In this document: positions 1 to 8,473 of the stretch, piece by piece
Layout of the letters: each line of letters opens with the position of its first letter
Position numbering within the stretch: position 1 is the first letter of the stretch
Assembly (NCBI GenBank): GCA_009916335.1
Contig: SAAR01000146.1
Span: 1 to 8,473 of the forward strand
DNA from: Erysipelotrichia bacterium
GTDB lineage: Bacteria; Bacillota_I; Bacilli_A; Erysipelotrichales; Erysipelotrichaceae
DNA length: 8,473 nucleotides
Direction: 5' to 3'
Translations under genes and position numbers: made by a program
The notes under the pieces: generated by a model
What the model saw: only the letters and a program-made list of their open reading frames with translations
Told to the model about the DNA's origin: nothing
The model's database searches: none

Positions 1-2486
1 TTGATGTATTCGTCAAGTTCCATATTTGGCCAGAAATTGACAAGCTGGATGTTCTCATTTTTTGAGCCAAGGCGGTCAATGCGTCCAAATCTTTGAATAA
101 TTCTAACAGGGTTCCAGTGAATATCATAATTGACAAGATAGTCACAATCTTGAAGATTTTGTCCTTCACTGATGACATCGGTTGCTATCAAAATATCTAT
201 CTCTTGGTGCTCTTTGATAGAGGTTTTATCGCGCTCTTTTGAAAGGGGTGAGAAGTTGGTGAGGATGGAGCTTAGGTCTTGATTTTTGGTGGTTAATGTT
301 GTTTTATTGCTTCCACTTCCCGTGACTATGGCACTATGGATACCAAGCTCTTCTTTTGCCCATGAAGCGATATGGTTGTAAAGATACTCTGCTGTATCGG
401 CAAAGGCGGTAAAGACAATGACTTTTTTATTGAGAGCATTGAGAGGGTTGTCTATTTTATGCTTAATGGTCTGTTTGAGTGTTTGTAGCTTTTCATCGCG
501 TAAGGCGTCTATCTCATGAGCAATGCTTAATAGCTCTCTTAATTTGTAGATGTCATTTTCTAAATCTTGCTTCCATTTGATTTGGTCAATATCTCCAATA
601 AGCACTTTGACTTTGTTGCCAATGAGTTGTGAAGCATACTCTTCTGATTCTATATCAACATCCATAATGCTCATATCTTCCACAAAGCCATCACTTTGTT
701 TTTCAAGGAGTGCTATGAGGGTTTCATTGCGGTCGAGTAGCTTTTTAACCGTCAAAGCAAAAGAGTTGATGGAGCTTTCCATACGCTTTAAGAGATTGAC
801 ACGCATAAGGTGAATCAAACTTTGTTCACGATCTACTTGTTTAAAGACACCGCTTCCTACTTGAATATCGTACTTTTTATCATACTCTTCTCGTTTATGT
901 GGCAAGACGTATTTGAGGGGTGAATAGGCACATAAAGTGAGCTTTCGGATGGTTTTATTGATTTCGATAAGGGGTGGAAAATTGTTCTCTACATCAATGT
1001 CAGATTTGATATTGATAGGTTTGTTGCGTTCTGGAAACTTGCCAATAGCGGTAATATCATAATACTTTTCTATGTGTTTTCGGCTTCGTGCAATCGTCAC
1101 TAAATCAAGCAATTTAAAATAATCAAAGTTCAAAAGGTTCATCAATTTATCGGTGGTTCTGTTTTCTTCATCAAGTTTGAGCCACACATTAAATTTTGAT
1201 TGGGCTCTTCTTAGGGTGTTTTCTACACTATTAATCCCACTGTCTTGAAATGCTGCATCATTCCCCTCAGTGATAAATGCCAATTGATTTTTTAAGTCAT
1301 TGAGGCGGTTATTGACGGGCGTTGCAGAGAGCATTAAGACTTTGGTTTTAACACCTTTTTGTAAAACATCTTCTAAGAGTTTGGCATAGCGTGATTTACT
1401 TGTTCGCTTGTTGGTGCTGGTGTTTCTAAAATTGTGAGATTCGTCAATAACAATTAAATCGTAATTTGCCCAGTTGATCGTCGCAAGGTTTATCTCTCCA
1501 CTCATACCTTGTTCGCGTGTTAAGTCTGTGTGATTGAGAACATCGTAATTAAATCTATCGGCAGAGAGAATATTTCGTGTGTCATTGATGGTGTAGAGTG
1601 TCCAGTTATCTCTTAGTTTTTTTGGGCATAAGACTAATACTCTATCGTTTCTCAGTTCATAATATTTGATAACGGCAAGGGCTTCAAATGTTTTACCAAG
1701 TCCAACACTATCAGCGATGATACATCCATTGTAGCGTTCAAGTTTATCAATAGCCCCTAAAACGCCATCTCTTTGGAAGTTGTAAAGCTTATTCCATACG
1801 AGGGTATTTTTAAAGCCTGTTTTGGTGCGGATAATTTTCTCTTCATCTAATTCACCAATGAAATCTTTGAAGATGTGATAGAGTGTAAAAAAATAAAGAA
1901 ATTCTGGGGACTTGTTAGAGTAAATATCTTCTATCTTGGCTAAGACTTCTTTTTTTATATCTGAAACAATGCCATCGTTTTTCCATACTTCGTTGAAAGT
2001 GGCTAAAAAATCATTGGTTGCAGAAGTATCGGTAAGCAATGTGTTCATATGAAAAGCGTTTGAGTATGTGTAACCAAGTCCTGTTGTAGAAAAGTTTGAG
2101 CTTCCTTGAATGGCAATATCCCCAGAAGCATTGTGGGCATGAAACATATTGAAAGGTAAAATGCCAGCCATTTTTACCTCTTTGACTTTGACTTTCTCGT
2201 GAAACCAAGTGGCACATTCTTTGGCAATTTTGACATGTTGAAGGTTGTTTTTGTATCTGCTCTCTTCTTTTTCGCCTGATAAATTTGAAGATGCAAGGCT
2301 TTGAGGTACACTAAAAGGCGCGCTAAAAAGAAGTTTGACTTCATCAACTTTGGAAAGCTCTTTTTTTAAAGCTTCATAGGCATAAATCGTAAAATACGAT
2401 GAAACGATAGAAAGAGAACAATTTTTTTCAATATGCTCTTTGAGAATATCTCCAACTTTACCATTTTTTTTGTTGTCAATTAACAT
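1..2486 (-). CDS. PLD-like domain fused to SNF2-family helicase (C-terminus cut by window edge)
   Basis: This is an open frame of 828 codons that runs off the left edge with no stop. I checked the frame at five separated points and saw no break. The N-terminus (MLIDNKKNGKVGDIL) leads into a phospholipase-D-like fold ending in GSSNFSTTGLG (residues 128-138). A SNF2-type motor follows: GLGKT Walker A (262-266), motif Ia CPKKLRDNW (287-295), DESH Walker B (348-351), motif III SATP (387-390), FTAFADT (692-698), ATDVISEGQNLQ (motif V, about 768-779) and QRFGRIDR (motif VI, 798-805). Such proteins are predicted ATP-driven DNA translocases. The exact substrate is unknown, and the usual HxK pair of the PLD site is not visible. 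The ATG at 2484-2486 has an AAAGG-type ribosome site, and an in-frame TAA lies nine codons upstream. The gene follows the DUF4011-helicase-nuclease gene after 46 bases, so the two are probably co-transcribed. From memory, relatives run to roughly 1000 residues or more, so a C-terminal part is missing here. The architecture is secure; a role in phage defence is inferred from context. Confidence 0.9.
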   Translation of the reverse strand, partial: MLIDNKKNGKVGDILKEHIEKNCSLSIVSSYFTIYAYEALKKELSKVDEVKLLFSAPFSVPQSLASSNLSGEKEESRYKNNLQHVKIAKECATWFHEKVKVKEVKMAGILPFNMFHAHNASGDIAIQGSSNFSTTGLGYTYSNAFHMNTLLTDTSATNDFLATFNEVWKNDGIVSDIKKEVLAKIEDIYSNKSPEFLYFFTLYHIFKDFIGELDEEKIIRTKTGFKNTLVWNKLYNFQRDGVLGAIDKLERYNGCIIADSVGLGKTFEALAVIKYYELRNDRVLVLCPKKLRDNWTLYTINDTRNILSADRFNYDVLNHTDLTREQGMSGEINLATINWANYDLIVIDESHNFRNTSTNKRTSKSRYAKLLEDVLQKGVKTKVLMLSATPVNNRLNDLKNQLAFITEGNDAAFQDSGINSVENTLRRAQSKFNVWLKLDEENRTTDKLMNLLNFDYFKLLDLVTIARSRKHIEKYYDITAIGKFPERNKPINIKSDIDVENNFPPLIEINKTIRKLTLCAYSPLKYVLPHKREEYDKKYDIQVGSGVFKQVDREQSLIHLMRVNLLKRMESSINSFALTVKKLLDRNETLIALLEKQSDGFVEDMSIMDVDIESEEYASQLIGNKVKVLIGDIDQIKWKQDLENDIYKLRELLSIAHEIDALRDEKLQTLKQTIKHKIDNPLNALNKKVIVFTAFADTAEYLYNHIASWAKEELGIHSAIVTGSGSNKTTLTTKNQDLSSILTNFSPLSKERDKTSIKEHQEIDILIATDVISEGQNLQDCDYLVNYDIHWNPVRIIQRFGRIDRLGSKNENIQLVNFWPNMELDEYI

Positions 2487-2495
2487 TTTTACAAA

Positions 2496-2502
2496 CCTTT
2501 TC
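2496..2502 (-). promoter_or_regulatory. ribosome binding site of the PLD-SNF2 helicase gene
   Basis: GAAAAGG on the minus strand sits 9 bases before the ATG at 2486. It favours this ATG over an in-frame TTG seven codons upstream, which has no comparable site. The 46-base gap to the preceding stop codon contains no hairpin followed by a T-run, so I see no terminator between the two genes. Confidence 0.6.
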
Positions 2503-2532
2503 AATTTGCTTTAATTTAAAGACGAAAATATA

Positions 2533-5500
2533 TTACTCATCAGCTTTTTCTAAAATTTCAAAAATATTACTTATAAAACTCAGCTGTTCGACATCTAAAC
2601 TTTGCCTGATTTTCAAAGGAATTTCACTTCGAAATTCATCCATGTCCAATGGCTTATGTTTAATAAAAAGATCAATCATTAAGGGTGACAAAAGGCATCT
2701 TGCATCAATTTTGAACTGCTTAGCTATAACAGTGTCTCTAAAAGCAATAAGCTCTTCTTTAATCGTTTGATCGGAAGAAAATTGACGAGGTTGTTGAGCA
2801 ACGTCTACTTGCAAGTCAGGCTGATTAATTATTACCTGTATTACAACATCATCTTTAATCTCTACCGCCTGATCTACAGTTTGTGTTTCTTTAATAAATG
2901 GTGTGCTTTTTTGCTGCGCTTTTTGAATAATGTCTAAAAGCTTTTTGATTTCATTTTCTCTATTTTTAAACCAATCCACAGACCAAATTCTATGGATATT
3001 CCATCCAAGTTTTTCTAAAACCTCTTGTTTTAATCGATCTCTATCTCTGGCTGATTTTGAGGAATGGTACGTTGCACCATCACATTCAATTCCTAATACA
3101 TACTCATTTGGATTATTCTTTGACACCACTGCTAAATCTATAAAATATCCAGCAACTCCCACTTGAGGAACTACCGTATACCCACAATCAGACAATAATT
3201 GGCTTACAGCAATTTCAAATTCTGAATCAAAACCTCTTTGGTTTAATATTACATTGGAAGACAACTTACCTGTTTCTGCATAATTCAAAAATGCTTTTAA
3301 TGCCATAACTCCGCGCGAGCTATTTGGACTTATAATAATGTCAGAGCTTTGCATTGAAGTGAATATTTCCATTTTTTGCTTGGCTCGTGTAAATAAGACG
3401 TTGAGCCTTCTCCAGCCTACATCTGAATTTATAGGGCCAAAGCGCTGATAGACCCTTTGCGTTTCTCTGTCTTTTCCAAATGTTGTTGAGATAAAAATAA
3501 CATCACGCTCATCGCCTTGTAAGCTTTCCAAATTTTTTACAAAAAATGGTTCATTGGTTTCTGCCCACTTAGTAATAAAGTTTGAAACAACAGGAGAGTT
3601 TTTCTCTTTCTCGTCCATAAGAGCTTGAATTAGATCTCTTTGGTCGGTGTTAAATGTTCCTACACCTAATGAGCAATTGGGGAATCTTTTCATTTGTTGT
3701 TCAAGCGCTTCTACAACGTATTTTGCCTCATGCTTGTTTTTTCTATCAAGATAGAATGCATCTTTTAAATAGTGGTGCTTTATTCCTAATTGATCACTTT
3801 TGGCAATAGTGGGTGATGGAAATACAATCAAGTTACCATCATAAAATTGCTTGTTGGAGAAATCTATTAATGACTCATGCTGTGAACGATAGTGCCATTT
3901 GAGTTGACGAATCGGTTGGTATAGATTCAAACAAAAGTCTAAGATTGATTCACTCTCGCTAATCATACTTTCATTATCTTCTTCAGATTTATCCAATGAA
4001 TCAAAAAACGATGTTGGAGGAAGCTGCTTTGGATCACCAACAATTACAATTTGGTCAACTCTTGCAATTGCACCTATCGCCTCTTCTGGACGCAATTGTG
4101 AAGCTTCATCTATCACAAGAACATCAAAGGTAATATCTTGCGGTGGTAAATATTGAGCAACTGATAATGGGCTCATCATAAAACAGGGTTTTAGTGCTTT
4201 TAATGCCACTGAAGAGCGCTTAACCAATTGTCTTAGAGGCAGATGGCGTCTTTGAAGACTAATTTGATGCGTTAAGAGACTTAGTTCAGTAAGATTTCTT
4301 ATTTTCCCTCCTCTAATACCCTGAGGCACATCTTTTTGCATAGCAAGATGAGCAATTTTTTGACGCGCTTTTTCAATCCACTCTTTATCTAAAGACTTAA
4401 ACTTTTCAATCACTTGCTCATGGCTTAACCGGCTAAATCTATTCATAATAGAGTACTCTCGATAAAGCTCTTTTGCAAGTGTATTAAAAAAATTATAGTT
4501 TAATGAAGCACCAAGCATTTCTGTTGGCAATATCCCTCTCTCATGAGCAACGACAATATCCTCAAGACCTACGCGTTTGAGTTCTTGTGTAAAACGTTGA
4601 TAATCACTCCAAATCATAAGCATATCAATGTTGGAATCGAGAGCACTAAGTTTTTCAATGCCAGCATTTAAGTTAAATGTTTCACCGCAAAAGATGTCCA
4701 ATGACAACGTGGCGTATTGTTCAACTGCTTGCATGGTTGATAATAATTTTTCATCGATATCTTTAATCTCTTTTAATACGACAATATTTTGTGCAAATTC
4801 TTTAAATAGTGTCTCTTTCAAGCAGTTTTGTATCGCAGAGTTTTCAATAGCATCAAAAAGATCTACAGCATTCTTGATTTGGTCTTTGATTTGAAAAATA
4901 TTACCTGATCTCATATTGAGTGCATCATAATTTACTTGCATACTTCTTTTCGCAAAAAGAATAGTTTCAAGCATTTTTTGTGAATGCAACAATGCTGCGT
5001 CATTAATATGCTCATATTGGTTTAAAAGAGCTTCTAAAATCCCTATTTCTGAATCTGCCAAAAGATTCATAAAATCATTTTTTGATAATTCTTCATCTTG
5101 ATGAAACACTTTTAAAAAAGATTCTTGTAGTGATTCGATCTTTGCATCAAATTCTTCTATTTTTGATTTTAATGCAAAGAGGTCTAGCATTCCATAAGTA
5201 TTTAACTCCAGCTGCTTAGCCAATCGTGGTCCATACCCATCAAAAATTCCATTAACGTACTGTTGAACATTTTGCATTGCTTGCTCAATCTCATCATACT
5301 TTGAAGTAAGTGATTCGTGCATTAATTCATTACCACTTAAGAAGAATGTTTGCAAATCAATATTTTTAATAGCTTTTCGAAGTTCTTTACTCCATAAATG
5401 TATTGTTTGAATCGTTTCCCAATCTGTACTTGTTCCTTTAAAATGGATCCCAAATTGTATTTTGTAGCTATCCTTACGCTCAAACTCATCAATGCTTTTT

Positions 5501-7959
5501 TTATAGTGTGTGGCGCGATTAAAATACTCTTGGCATAGCATTTTATTAGAAGGCAATGGGTCATTTAATATTGCCGCTAAATAGCGTTTTGCTTTTTTAT
5601 ATTCTTTTGAGAAAAAATTGAATAATGAGTCTTTTTTTTCATTAAAGGCTTTTTCAACGGCTTGCAATTCTTCCAATTCACATGCAAGCAGTGCTGAGAG
5701 ATTAAAAGGTATTAATGCGTCTATTGCATACGTATTAATACCTTGATTTTGTTGTATCGCTTCATTTAAAATGAGTTCAAACTGCGTTGTTCCAAAGAGT
5801 TGATTTAAACCAATATACTGATTTAGTGGAATTTGGTTTAACATACGAGTTGCATTTAAAATTGACTCAACGTAAAGTATCTCTCCTTTAAATGGTAAAT
5901 TAATCTCTTGATTGAGAGAGGACATTACTGATGAAATAGCCATTATCTTTTTTTCAAATTCTCTATTTAACTGCCTGATTTCATAAAGACGTTTATATTC
6001 ATCGTAAAAGGATAAAGACTCTTGCTCTACAGTATCCATCGCACTAACAATTTTTCTAAATGCATCTGGTGATTTAGAAATCTCTTTTAACCAACCTCCA
6101 GAAATTCCTGCATTATGCGTTAATAAAAGTGGTGTCAATCCCCTCAATAAGTCTAGCTGTTCAAATTCATTTTGTACATCACAAGGTAATTTTGAAAATT
6201 GATGCTGTAATTGCTCAAAGTTGCCCTTCAACTCTTTCAAAAGTAGGATAAAATCATCTTTATCACTAAAATTTAATTTATGGGTATCAAGCCCTTTCCA
6301 GTAGCAGTTTTTTAAGTCGTAGTTTTTATGCAAACTTGCATAGTGGTCAATAAGAGTAACCATCTCTTTGTATTTAGAATGGCTGTTTTTATCTATTTCT
6401 TGTACTTTAAAAGAAAGGTAGGAAGCAGAATGTTGATATCTTTCTACTTTCCACAAAACATCATAAATACTGCACCCAAAATTTCCAAAATCTTGATGAA
6501 TAAGTTCGACATACTCTTTTAGCTCGTTTTTCTTTTTATCAATTTCATCCATAATAGATGTGAAGGTTTGCACATCATGATGTACCGCATCGAGTCTTTG
6601 TTCTATACTCTTTAAAACAGTTGTTTTTTGGGATTTATGACTGTGTAATTCTAAACAAAAATCAGACAAGCCAAGATGACTTAAGCGTTTGTGTACAACT
6701 TCAAGAGCTGCTAATTTTTCAGAAACAAATAAAACCGATTTACCTTCAGCAATTAATGCAGCAATGATATTTGTAATGGTTTGTGATTTACCAGTACCAG
6801 GAGGGCCTTCTATAATGACATTCTTCCCTTCTAAAACATCAACGATAGCACTGTGCTGTGAGCTGTCTGCATCCGTGACCAATAAAATTGAATTGGCTTT
6901 TTTATGTGCATCAATTTCATAATCAGGTGCGATTTTTATACTATTTGTACCATCTCTGCCTAAAAAAATCTCCTGCAAGATTGGATTTTGTAGTAAACTA
7001 TCTTCATCCCACAACTCTTCTTTGAGGTTTTGGTACATCAAAATTTTTCCAAAATGCAAAAAATCCAACGTTGCTTCATGTTTTACTTTCCAAGAAGGGT
7101 GATTTGCAATGGCTGATTTAATGTTTTCAATATATGCGTCATACGTTGTCTCTTCATTCAACTCTGGCAATAAAATTCCATAGTCATTGCTTAACTTTTC
7201 GGCAAGAGAACGGTTACAATCGAGTCCTTCTTGAGAATACTCGATTGTGAAGAGAAATTGATTAGCGCTTTTAATTTTTTTGATAGTAATTGGAATACAA
7301 ATGAGTGGAGATCTATTAATTTCTTCAGAATGTTGAGACTCATTCCAATATAAAAAGCCTAGAGATAGATACAGAACATTGGCACCTGTTTCTTCTATAA
7401 AGCTTCTTGCTTGTCTTTCAATCACCGACAAAATCTTCTCCATCTCGCCAGGATAATGAAGTGTTTGTAGGGATTTGTCTGTATATCTTTGATTTAAAGA
7501 TGCGTTTGCTATATCTAGTCTGGGAAGTTCTTTTGAAATATCTAGATTTATTTCTTGGGCTCTTTCTTCAGGTGTTAATAGTTTTTTATCCAACTGAGCT
7601 TTAATCTTCAGCTCACATTCTTGAATTTGAGCAAGAATGTATGTGGTGTCTTGATCTACTAATTGTTGAGCGGTGTTAATTAACCTTCTTTTTTCTGTTT
7701 GGAGTCTTTCAATTTCTACATAATCTATTTCTGGTTCTGGAATAGATAAAAATTTGAACTTATCTTCTTTTTCAATAAGATGCTGGAAAATAAAATCTGG
7801 TGACTCATCAATAATTCTAAGAAAACGAGATTTTGGAGGAACCCGATAATTAATAAGTTTATTTCTTCTTGATGTATCGATAAGTTTTTTTTGGAGCTCT
7901 GCTAGACCAGTATAAAATGTATCTTTTTCATATTGAGTTAATGAAAAGCCTTTACTCAT
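2533..7959 (-). CDS. hhe: Hhe-like antiphage protein: DUF4011 - SF1 helicase - Vsr/DUF559-like nuclease
   Basis: This single intact frame encodes 1808 residues. The N-terminal DUF4011-type region has LIDTSRRNKLINY (26-38) and a conserved stretch at 194-226 containing NVLYLSLGFLYW. The superfamily 1 helicase core follows: DSSQHSAI Q-motif-like (365-372), Walker A GPPGTGKS (385-392), KPCFMMSPLSVAQYL (1257-1271), Walker B DEAS (1284-1287), GDPKQLPP (motif III, 1308-1315), WHYRSQHE (motif IV, 1355-1362), SLQGDERDVIF (motif V, 1479-1489) and RRLNVLFTRAK (motif VI, 1517-1527). About 800 residues of mostly helical, coiled-coil-like sequence separate motifs Ia and II. The C-terminal nuclease is of the Vsr/DUF559/MTES_1575 type, with E1580/E1582, D1608, E1625-C-D1627-G, H1632, and the tail LGWNIHRIWSVDWF (1651-1664). 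A 140-residue extension follows. This order matches Hhe, reported as a single-gene antiphage system; all catalytic motifs look intact. The ATG is fixed by an in-frame TAA two codons upstream and an AGGGA site. The second helicase gene follows directly. The mechanism, presumably recognition and cleavage of invading DNA, is inferred. Confidence 0.92.
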   Translation of the reverse strand: MSKGFSLTQYEKDTFYTGLAELQKKLIDTSRRNKLINYRVPPKSRFLRIIDESPDFIFQHLIEKEDKFKFLSIPEPEIDYVEIERLQTEKRRLINTAQQLVDQDTTYILAQIQECELKIKAQLDKKLLTPEERAQEINLDISKELPRLDIANASLNQRYTDKSLQTLHYPGEMEKILSVIERQARSFIEETGANVLYLSLGFLYWNESQHSEEINRSPLICIPITIKKIKSANQFLFTIEYSQEGLDCNRSLAEKLSNDYGILLPELNEETTYDAYIENIKSAIANHPSWKVKHEATLDFLHFGKILMYQNLKEELWDEDSLLQNPILQEIFLGRDGTNSIKIAPDYEIDAHKKANSILLVTDADSSQHSAIVDVLEGKNVIIEGPPGTGKSQTITNIIAALIAEGKSVLFVSEKLAALEVVHKRLSHLGLSDFCLELHSHKSQKTTVLKSIEQRLDAVHHDVQTFTSIMDEIDKKKNELKEYVELIHQDFGNFGCSIYDVLWKVERYQHSASYLSFKVQEIDKNSHSKYKEMVTLIDHYASLHKNYDLKNCYWKGLDTHKLNFSDKDDFILLLKELKGNFEQLQHQFSKLPCDVQNEFEQLDLLRGLTPLLLTHNAGISGGWLKEISKSPDAFRKIVSAMDTVEQESLSFYDEYKRLYEIRQLNREFEKKIMAISSVMSSLNQEINLPFKGEILYVESILNATRMLNQIPLNQYIGLNQLFGTTQFELILNEAIQQNQGINTYAIDALIPFNLSALLACELEELQAVEKAFNEKKDSLFNFFSKEYKKAKRYLAAILNDPLPSNKMLCQEYFNRATHYKKSIDEFERKDSYKIQFGIHFKGTSTDWETIQTIHLWSKELRKAIKNIDLQTFFLSGNELMHESLTSKYDEIEQAMQNVQQYVNGIFDGYGPRLAKQLELNTYGMLDLFALKSKIEEFDAKIESLQESFLKVFHQDEELSKNDFMNLLADSEIGILEALLNQYEHINDAALLHSQKMLETILFAKRSMQVNYDALNMRSGNIFQIKDQIKNAVDLFDAIENSAIQNCLKETLFKEFAQNIVVLKEIKDIDEKLLSTMQAVEQYATLSLDIFCGETFNLNAGIEKLSALDSNIDMLMIWSDYQRFTQELKRVGLEDIVVAHERGILPTEMLGASLNYNFFNTLAKELYREYSIMNRFSRLSHEQVIEKFKSLDKEWIEKARQKIAHLAMQKDVPQGIRGGKIRNLTELSLLTHQISLQRRHLPLRQLVKRSSVALKALKPCFMMSPLSVAQYLPPQDITFDVLVIDEASQLRPEEAIGAIARVDQIVIVGDPKQLPPTSFFDSLDKSEEDNESMISESESILDFCLNLYQPIRQLKWHYRSQHESLIDFSNKQFYDGNLIVFPSPTIAKSDQLGIKHHYLKDAFYLDRKNKHEAKYVVEALEQQMKRFPNCSLGVGTFNTDQRDLIQALMDEKEKNSPVVSNFITKWAETNEPFFVKNLESLQGDERDVIFISTTFGKDRETQRVYQRFGPINSDVGWRRLNVLFTRAKQKMEIFTSMQSSDIIISPNSSRGVMALKAFLNYAETGKLSSNVILNQRGFDSEFEIAVSQLLSDCGYTVVPQVGVAGYFIDLAVVSKNNPNEYVLGIECDGATYHSSKSARDRDRLKQEVLEKLGWNIHRIWSVDWFKNRENEIKKLLDIIQKAQQKSTPFIKETQTVDQAVEIKDDVVIQVIINQPDLQVDVAQQPRQFSSDQTIKEELIAFRDTVIAKQFKIDARCLLSPLMIDLFIKHKPLDMDEFRSEIPLKIRQSLDVEQLSFISNIFEILEKADE

Positions 7960-8082: not shown

Positions 8083-8151
8083 TATAAGTGTATAATTTTA
8101 AATAACGAAAATATTTAAATTTAATTTATTTAGAACCCCTTAGCAACCATT

Positions 8152-8253
8152 TCAATCCCAATAAAAAACTTCCTTGGGTGCTTCAGCTTTTGGTTTTGAG
8201 AGTTTTGGATCATCATAACCACACTGACATTCTCCATACACAATTGATCCCAC
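8152..8253 (-). CDS. possible small CxC-motif peptide of 33 residues, or remnant of a larger gene
   Basis: A GTG start at 8251-8253 is preceded, at a 5-base spacing, by a full AAGGAG ribosome site. It opens a frame of 33 codons ending in TGA at 8152-8154. The peptide starts MGSIVYGECQCGYDDPKL, continues with a Lys/Pro/Ala-rich middle, and ends EVFYWD. The E-C-Q-C-G-Y segment resembles half of a metal-binding site, such as the N-terminus of small zinc-ribbon-like proteins, but no second cysteine pair follows. It may therefore be a real small protein that pairs with another subunit, or the truncated start of a longer gene whose remainder was lost when the downstream genes arrived. A perfect TATAAT lies 30 bases upstream. 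I do not recognise the family. It lies 192 bases before the Hhe-like gene on the same strand and could be its leader peptide. Confidence 0.45.
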   Translation of the reverse strand: MGSIVYGECQCGYDDPKLSKPKAEAPKEVFYWD

Positions 8254-8299: not shown

Positions 8300-8316
8300 T
8301 GGACAGTTTGTGTCCA
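8300..8316. repeat. 6-bp inverted repeat TGGACA/TGTCCA
   Basis: TGGACA, a 5-base loop GTTTG, then TGTCCA. It lies 18 bases beyond the stop of the truncated gene at 8335. As a hairpin it could cap that gene's transcript, but CCCCGTGCC rather than a T-run follows on the minus strand, so it is not a standard intrinsic terminator. It could be an operator close to the TATAAT box. TGGACA/TGTCCA-like ends also occur in IS3-type elements, but nothing else here supports an insertion sequence. Confidence 0.4.
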
Positions 8317-8334: not shown

Positions 8335-8473
8335 TTATTTTACACAAGAATGGACCATCACTTTAGCCACCTCAGTTAAAAAGTGGCTCTCATGAGGAAT
8401 GATCCCTACCCTACCGATATCCAGTTTATCTGCATCCAAACAGATTTGAACCACCAAGTCTTGATACAAAGGA
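8335..8473 (-). CDS. C-terminal 45 residues of a possible HD-domain hydrolase (start outside window)
   Basis: The frame enters at the right edge and ends at TAA (8335-8337). It reads PLYQDLVVQICLDADKLDIG, then RVGIIPHESHFLTEVAKVMV and HSCVK. The segment around D-A-D-K-L-D followed by G-R-V-G-I resembles the downstream part of HD-superfamily metal-dependent phosphohydrolases, where an aspartate in an ADKLD/ADRLD-type motif is a metal ligand. The family call rests on that motif alone, since the HD dyad itself would lie outside the window. The other two minus-strand frames are interrupted or lack protein-like composition here. It is probably the chromosomal neighbour of the defence genes rather than part of them. 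Confidence 0.65.
   Translation of the reverse strand, partial: PLYQDLVVQICLDADKLDIGRVGIIPHESHFLTEVAKVMVHSCVK

Follow-up and report, generated by a model that had tools for sequence, protein, structure and literature searches.

An Hhe-like helicase-nuclease gene lies before the probable first gene of an extended type III restriction-modification cassette

The window, by which we mean the whole 8,473-nt stretch of DNA analyzed here (contig SAAR01000146.1, from an Erysipelotrichia bacterium), carries two large genes on its minus strand. Gene 1 (2533..7959, minus strand) encodes an Hhe-like protein of 1808 aa made up of a DUF4011 domain, an SF1 helicase and an MTES_1575 nuclease, and gene 2 (3..2486, minus strand) encodes a PLD-like domain joined to an SNF2 helicase, of which the window holds the first 828 aa before its left edge truncates the gene; a near-identical copy in genome G410 is 1066 aa long. 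As the original prediction had described, the 1808-codon gene 1 is intact and ends 46 nt before the PLD-SNF2 gene on the same strand (gene 1 stop to gene 2 ATG, 2487..2532, minus strand), with no terminator-like site found between the two. A promoter scan gave 18 sites, compared with 26.7 expected in shuffled sequence.

Gene 1 has the domain order of Hhe in a single chain, namely an N-terminal DUF4011, an SF1 helicase core and a C-terminal nuclease, and the two halves of its core are widely separated (AAA_11 at residues 365–506, AAA_12 at 1338–1534). The motifs GPPGTGKS, DEAS and QLPPT and the nuclease residues D1608...E1625-C-D1627-G are all intact, and the motor and nuclease motifs are invariant across the 22 sequences, window included, of an alignment of this family (A1). 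Plain Hhe was ruled out by the scores: the Hhe NCBIfam model NF042953 reached 1409.9 bits, below its equivalog cut-off of 2000, and the best PADLOC model was PDC-S37 at 1291 bits (read without a cut-off, as the library displays none) vs 946 for the PADLOC Hhe model. A literature search on PDC-S37 found no paper. The nearest relatives of gene 1 that carry an organism name belong to Sulfurospirillaceae and Aliarcobacter, and the closest proteins, P0001 (98%) and P0002 (69%), came from a protein search, which gives no genomic context. We also noted, on the Sulfurospirillum diekertiae plasmid pSDCE1 (L006 15001–15042), 42 nt that match the last bases of gene 1 (97.6%); this match stops exactly at the gene 1 stop codon, is followed by different sequence and resembles a relic. 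Going by the named relatives and this plasmid match, the bacterium that carries the window would probably be Sulfurospirillum-like. In an excerpt of a published account of the cDHS1 core defence hotspot of Pseudomonas aeruginosa, the right border of the hotspot is a large DUF4011 gene (PMC10250203).

For the PLD-like part of gene 2, a predicted model of residues 1–240 (pLDDT 82.8) showed the PLD fold, and its best structural matches were SauUSI, the NgoAVII R-protein and BfiI, among other PLD-fold proteins. The catalytic HKD motif is degenerate: at residues 116–131 (HAHNASGDIAIQGSSN; 2094..2141, minus strand) the lysine of HxK is replaced by histidine, giving HAH, and because HxK reads HxH, nuclease activity of gene 2 is doubtful. 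Among the 120 best-scoring homologs, the histidine was kept in 112, HxK in 35 and GSxN at the later motif in 85, while HxH occurred in two, and a pattern search found HxK followed by GSxN in 26 of the 120. A third of the close homologs thus retain the HxK lysine, and the HKD motif is absent from a distant clade (G242, G398, G089 and an Enterococcus hirae plasmid). Judging from its sequence, the PLD part encoded in the window is probably not a nuclease, one lost site being no proof of inactivity. Against the DISARM DrmD NCBIfam equivalog, gene 2 scored 169.6 bits, below the cut-off of 610, and the PADLOC single-protein model that matched it was C3a139 (HKD+Snf2).

The genome surveys of both families were samples with strict cut-offs and overlapping sets. 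Gene 2 was present in 12/397 genomes of the phylum (E ≤ 1e-60; one, G019, is a 36% outgroup), in 4/44 of the family of G001 and in 17/398 of the order of G003 (E ≤ 1e-200), and gene 1 in 8/397, in 2/44 of the family of G001 and in 4/104 of the family of G003 (E ≤ 1e-150). Scanning genome contigs with a single protein query returned no relative, and with alignment A1 it returned four loci. At the DNA level, the window had no match in E. coli genomes and three short matches among plasmids (near mode).

The relatives of gene 2 were found to head a gene cassette. By tblastn, the genes ran PLD-SNF2–DUF4391–Mod–Res without exception in the 31 related loci whose downstream sequence extends for 7 kb or more (16 plasmids, four viral contigs and 11 Campylobacterota loci, with PLD-SNF2 identity of at least 45%). 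Some queries derived from counted loci (L002, L003, L005, L052, L055, L093 and L096), and the count of 31/31 was unchanged after self-matches of the query set had been removed; the weakest DUF4391 (L055) was confirmed by Pfam at 81.5 bits. Kept apart from the count were the outgroup L057 and the contig-limited loci L024, L029, L049, L074, L075, L082, L087, L106, L108 and L109, of which L049, L082, L106 and L109 were long enough to show DUF4391, plus Mod where it was reached. The outgroup, 36% identical, has an HAK motif, and we detected no match to DUF4391, Mod or Res behind its PLD-SNF2 gene.

Annotated plasmids tell the same order, with the gene 2 relative first, then DUF4391, a site-specific DNA-methyltransferase and a DEAD/DEAH helicase. 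Annotation of Res is absent in L001, where Res is short, and in L090, where it is split by an IS; L097 annotates its DUF4391 protein under another name, and L089 is unannotated. These plasmids are 16 of the 521 records with a gene 2 match, chosen for spread among the 40 best, a sample that leans to identities of at least 47%, and the cassette ranges over plasmids of several bacterial phyla and one archaeon. Immediately before PLD-SNF2, the plasmid cassettes L001, L092, L095, L096 and L099 carry a small helix-turn-helix gene, which, by analogy with RptR in type I loci, may regulate the operon. The predicted structure of DUF4391 (pLDDT 88.8) consists of an alpha/beta domain and a C-terminal helical hairpin, and since the structural matches listed cover the hairpin part, no function could be assigned to it. 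Our literature search met no title or abstract start describing a PLD-SNF2–DUF4391–Mod–Res cassette, and DUF4391 was named in a single paper of the library searched, where it is listed in a table among domains with enrichment in other bacteria.

The closest guide to what adjoins the window is G410, whose gene 2 is 99% identical to ours in protein (94.7% in DNA over 2491 nt) and heads such a cassette, being followed by DUF4391, Abi_2, Mod, GajA, GajB, DUF2130, RhuM and Res. PADLOC scored this Mod at 767 bits (MTase_III) and this Res at 1101 bits (REase_III). Judged from these relatives, the DUF4391, Mod and Res genes that go with the window most likely lie beyond its left edge. The original prediction had remarked that no methyltransferase was visible and that self/non-self discrimination would have to come from something else; for gene 2 this found no support, because its relatives head a DUF4391–Mod–Res cassette with a type III Mod just downstream, so that a methyltransferase very likely sits just past the left edge and its absence from the window is very likely an edge effect.

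The cassette frequently contains additional genes. At least 500 nt of extra DNA separates DUF4391 from Mod or Mod from Res in 12 of the 31 loci, and the cargo genes that we could identify share the strand of the cassette, while several other fillings gave no family match. In G410, the cargo on the cassette strand comprises a Gabija pair (GajA, GajB), DUF2130, RhuM and Abi_2 (L078 9807–19901 and L079 1–4810). A PtuA-like, Septu-type ATPase was found in G350 and G496:C1, without an identified second Septu gene and, in G496:C1, together with AAA_13 and DUF2130; G414 holds a distant PtuA-like ATPase and PIN. Further fillings were a Pycsar cyclase with PycTM (G238), an AbiLi-like ATPase with RloB (G398), a PifA-like KAP NTPase with DUF3800 (G013), Abi_2 (G242), GmrSD with PDC-M29A (a Persicobacter plasmid), GmrSD_N (an Acinetobacter gerneri plasmid), and a reverse transcriptase with RhuM (viral contig L072). 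The Pycsar, PtuA-like, AAA_13, GmrSD and reverse-transcriptase cargo occupies the two internal slots (L050 3518–5286, L107 6509–15109, L089 14040–17987 and L072 13994–18586). Genome G496 seems to carry a pair of PLD-SNF2 cassettes whose cargo differs, one on C1 (L107) and one on C56 (L106). Embedded defence genes in restriction-modification (R-M) loci are an already known theme, and embedded defences are reportedly treated in a 2024 preprint by Payne et al.

We then compared the junction between the two genes with that of related loci. In both G410 and G414, gene 2 is 98–99% identical in protein (split across two frames in G414) and gene 1 is absent, and DNA homology between the window and these gene-1-less cassettes begins 5 nt before the gene 2 ATG. 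In contig C178 of G415, gene 2 follows the end of gene 1 across an identical junction, with 96% DNA identity to the window over 3502 nt and 14 gap openings in that alignment. A second contig of this genome, C16, joins the left flank of the window to a broken-frame SF2 helicase, an ankyrin gene, two short ORFs and the start of gene 2 at its ATG; because the flanks are the same and the filling differs, C16 and the window point to an exchangeable slot before gene 2. Given their many indels, the G415 contigs may be error-prone or a strain mixture, and C178 and C16 may represent two cassettes or two strains, decay and sequencing error being indistinguishable here. A direct repeat flanking gene 1 was considered as a recombination site and rejected as chance: 22% of 2000 simulated pairs, as well as 13/100 coding pieces, attained its local alignment score of 14.

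Across the wider set, upstream sequence extended for 1 kb or further at 38 PLD-SNF2 loci, and a gene-1 relative stood there in just one of them, G415:C178, a close relative of the window. Conversely, none of the 17 gene-1 loci, whose identity to gene 1 does not exceed 54%, showed a match to PLD-SNF2, DUF4391, Mod or Res within the stretch that was fetched; these loci exclude the contexts of the closest proteins, P0001 (98%) and P0002 (69%), and 16 of them have at least 2.9 kb downstream of the match, L011 having only 0.6 kb. In four genomes with gene-1 relatives (L007–L010), what matched gene 2 was limited to short helicase motifs (best E 1e-8), and G090 has both gene families, on different contigs. 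Elsewhere, the genes upstream of PLD-SNF2 were MksE-like (G350), ArdA (G013), relaxase-like (G410) or thioredoxin-like (G204); some other loci have nothing close upstream on the same strand, and in 3/9 Campylobacterota loci the nearest upstream neighbour lies on the opposite strand. As the fillings varied (the thioredoxin-like gene being one example), the slot is not reserved for defence genes. The relaxase-like gene directly upstream of the G410 cassette (L078 8248–9693; Pfam Relaxase, E 1e-5) hints at a mobilizable element.

The left border of this slot is shared: the 3′ end of a flanking gene in the window (8335..8473, minus strand) is homologous to a 185-aa ORF at L087:682–1239, for which no Pfam match was found. 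Other features of this flank were observed in passing. The sequence at about 8150–8253 is a shortened remnant of a 117-aa cysteine-rich ORF of L087 (region 1318–2461), and the window lacks the neighbouring L087 gene, which is 243 aa long and has a Leu_Phe_trans match. An inverted repeat, TGGACA-N5-TGTCCA, lies at 8300..8316, and similar palindromes (TGGACA-N5/6-TGTCCA) precede small ORFs in the window, in L087 (~1260) and on the plasmid L006 (~14833); noted by eye, these palindromes are a possible candidate for a shared operator.

From these observations, we regard it as very probable that the window covers a stacked defence locus at its 5′ end, with gene 2 heading a type III cassette and gene 1 forming a separate, single-gene system. 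The original prediction had allowed for two independent systems stacked in an island, and this is the reading that the data favour, with the extended type III R-M cassette as the second system. Restriction by Mod and Res is established type III biology: Mod would methylate host sites, and Res would move in an ATP-driven manner and then cut unmethylated sites, the way EcoP15I-type enzymes do. PLD-SNF2 would be an SNF2-type motor, RapA/DrmD-like by sequence, with a PLD domain that is probably non-catalytic, and together with DUF4391 it may serve the R-M enzyme as an accessory that remodels or clears complexes bound to DNA. Our preferred view of gene 1 is that of an autonomous Hhe-like gene, nearer to PDC-S37, in an exchangeable 5′ slot, its autonomy being something that we infer. 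It would load on foreign or damaged DNA, translocate by means of its SF1 motor and cut with its C-terminal nuclease domain, acting independently of the cassette, probably on a shared transcript. Because the gap is short and lacks a terminator, co-expression and some cooperation are possible, as is a functional link between gene 1 and the cassette through shared transcription or a guardian role.

The original prediction had also proposed a two-component Hhe plus PLD-SNF2 system, in which the SF1 motor-nuclease of gene 1 and the PLD-SNF2 translocase form one machine, as the shared strand, the 46-nt gap without a terminator and the exact junction retained in G415:C178 might suggest. We give this reading very little credence, since the pair was seen only in the window and G415:C178, two relatives with a 98–99% identical gene 2 do without gene 1, and the adjacency counts (1/38 PLD-SNF2 loci, the one being a close relative, and 0/17 gene-1 loci of at most 54% identity) show a pair that is not conserved across lineages, while gene 2 is linked instead to DUF4391–Mod–Res (31/31). 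Given that 31/31 linkage, it is likewise highly improbable that PLD-SNF2 acts in defence by itself through a PLD nuclease of its own, a view in keeping with the PADLOC single-protein model C3a139 and the predicted PLD fold but not with the presence of HxK in just 35 of the 120 best-scoring homologs.

A looser connection, which we consider unlikely, would make gene 1 a PrrC-like guardian or backup that is co-regulated with the cassette and steps in once a phage has blocked or evaded the R-M enzyme. It posits no physical partnership between genes 1 and 2, is compatible with stacking and differs from it by the functional link alone. Many kinds of same-strand cargo inside the cassette are consistent with it, and excerpts of published work offer precedents by analogy in PrrC, embedded in a type IC R-M locus (PMC12707154), and DarTG2, which sits within a type I R-M locus controlled by the small repressor RptR (PMC12255303); the relatives of gene 1 that were found with no cassette nearby argue against it. 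Also rather improbable, and offered tentatively, is the broader idea that the cassette is a general chassis for other immune systems, in which defence modules insert whole, at gene boundaries, into three fixed positions (ahead of PLD-SNF2, between DUF4391 and Mod, and between Mod and Res), and in which a non-catalytic PLD-SNF2 and DUF4391 would couple the state of the R-M enzyme to interchangeable effectors, gene 1 included, under common control.

With stacking as the preferred reading, a tempting pairing of genes 1 and 2 is corrected and the likely affiliation of gene 2 is shown. The locus is of moderate interest as a pointer to a widespread yet little-described cassette with defence cargo, whose slots are a place to seek new defence genes, given the recurrent nested cargo (Gabija, Septu-type ATPase, Pycsar, AbiL-type, GmrSD and reverse transcriptase). 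It also raises the question of what a degenerate PLD-SNF2 motor and DUF4391 contribute to a type III R-M enzyme.

Compared with known systems, gene 1 resembles Hhe (NF042953, PADLOC PDLC02194) in being a single gene with DUF4011, an SF1 helicase and a C-terminal nuclease, but it is only 38–41% identical to the Klebsiella plasmid Hhe over the aligned 62–70%, and the PADLOC candidate model PDC-S37 fits it better than that of Hhe. SauUSI is an ATP-dependent restriction enzyme in which an SF2 helicase carries a fused PLD domain. Gene 2 shares the predicted PLD fold with SauUSI, NgoAVII R and BfiI, all PLD-type restriction enzymes, but in the window it lacks the HxK lysine, as do 85 of the 120 best-scoring homologs, and the cassette includes a separate Res nuclease. 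Fusions of an HKD-type domain to an SF2 helicase, as in gene 2, are also described in excerpts on PbeA of the Pbe/CxC-ABC systems (partners PbeB–D; PMC10853773) and on the HKD-helicases of MORC operons that resemble type III systems (partner, a MORC ATPase; PMC2292703), and their partners differ from those of gene 2. The DISARM protein DrmD is an SNF2 helicase related to gene 2 in sequence, with DrmA–C as partners. Like type III R-M systems with EcoP15I-type Mod and Res, the relatives of gene 2 carry MTase_III and REase_III downstream; unlike plain type III systems, the cassette adds two conserved genes, PLD-SNF2 and DUF4391, and has cargo between its core genes in 12/31 loci. As in the PrrC (type IC) and DarTG2 (type I) loci, as far as the published excerpts describe them, foreign defence genes stand inside or beside an R-M operon, whereas here the role of chassis falls to an extended type III cassette, in which at least three positions are filled.
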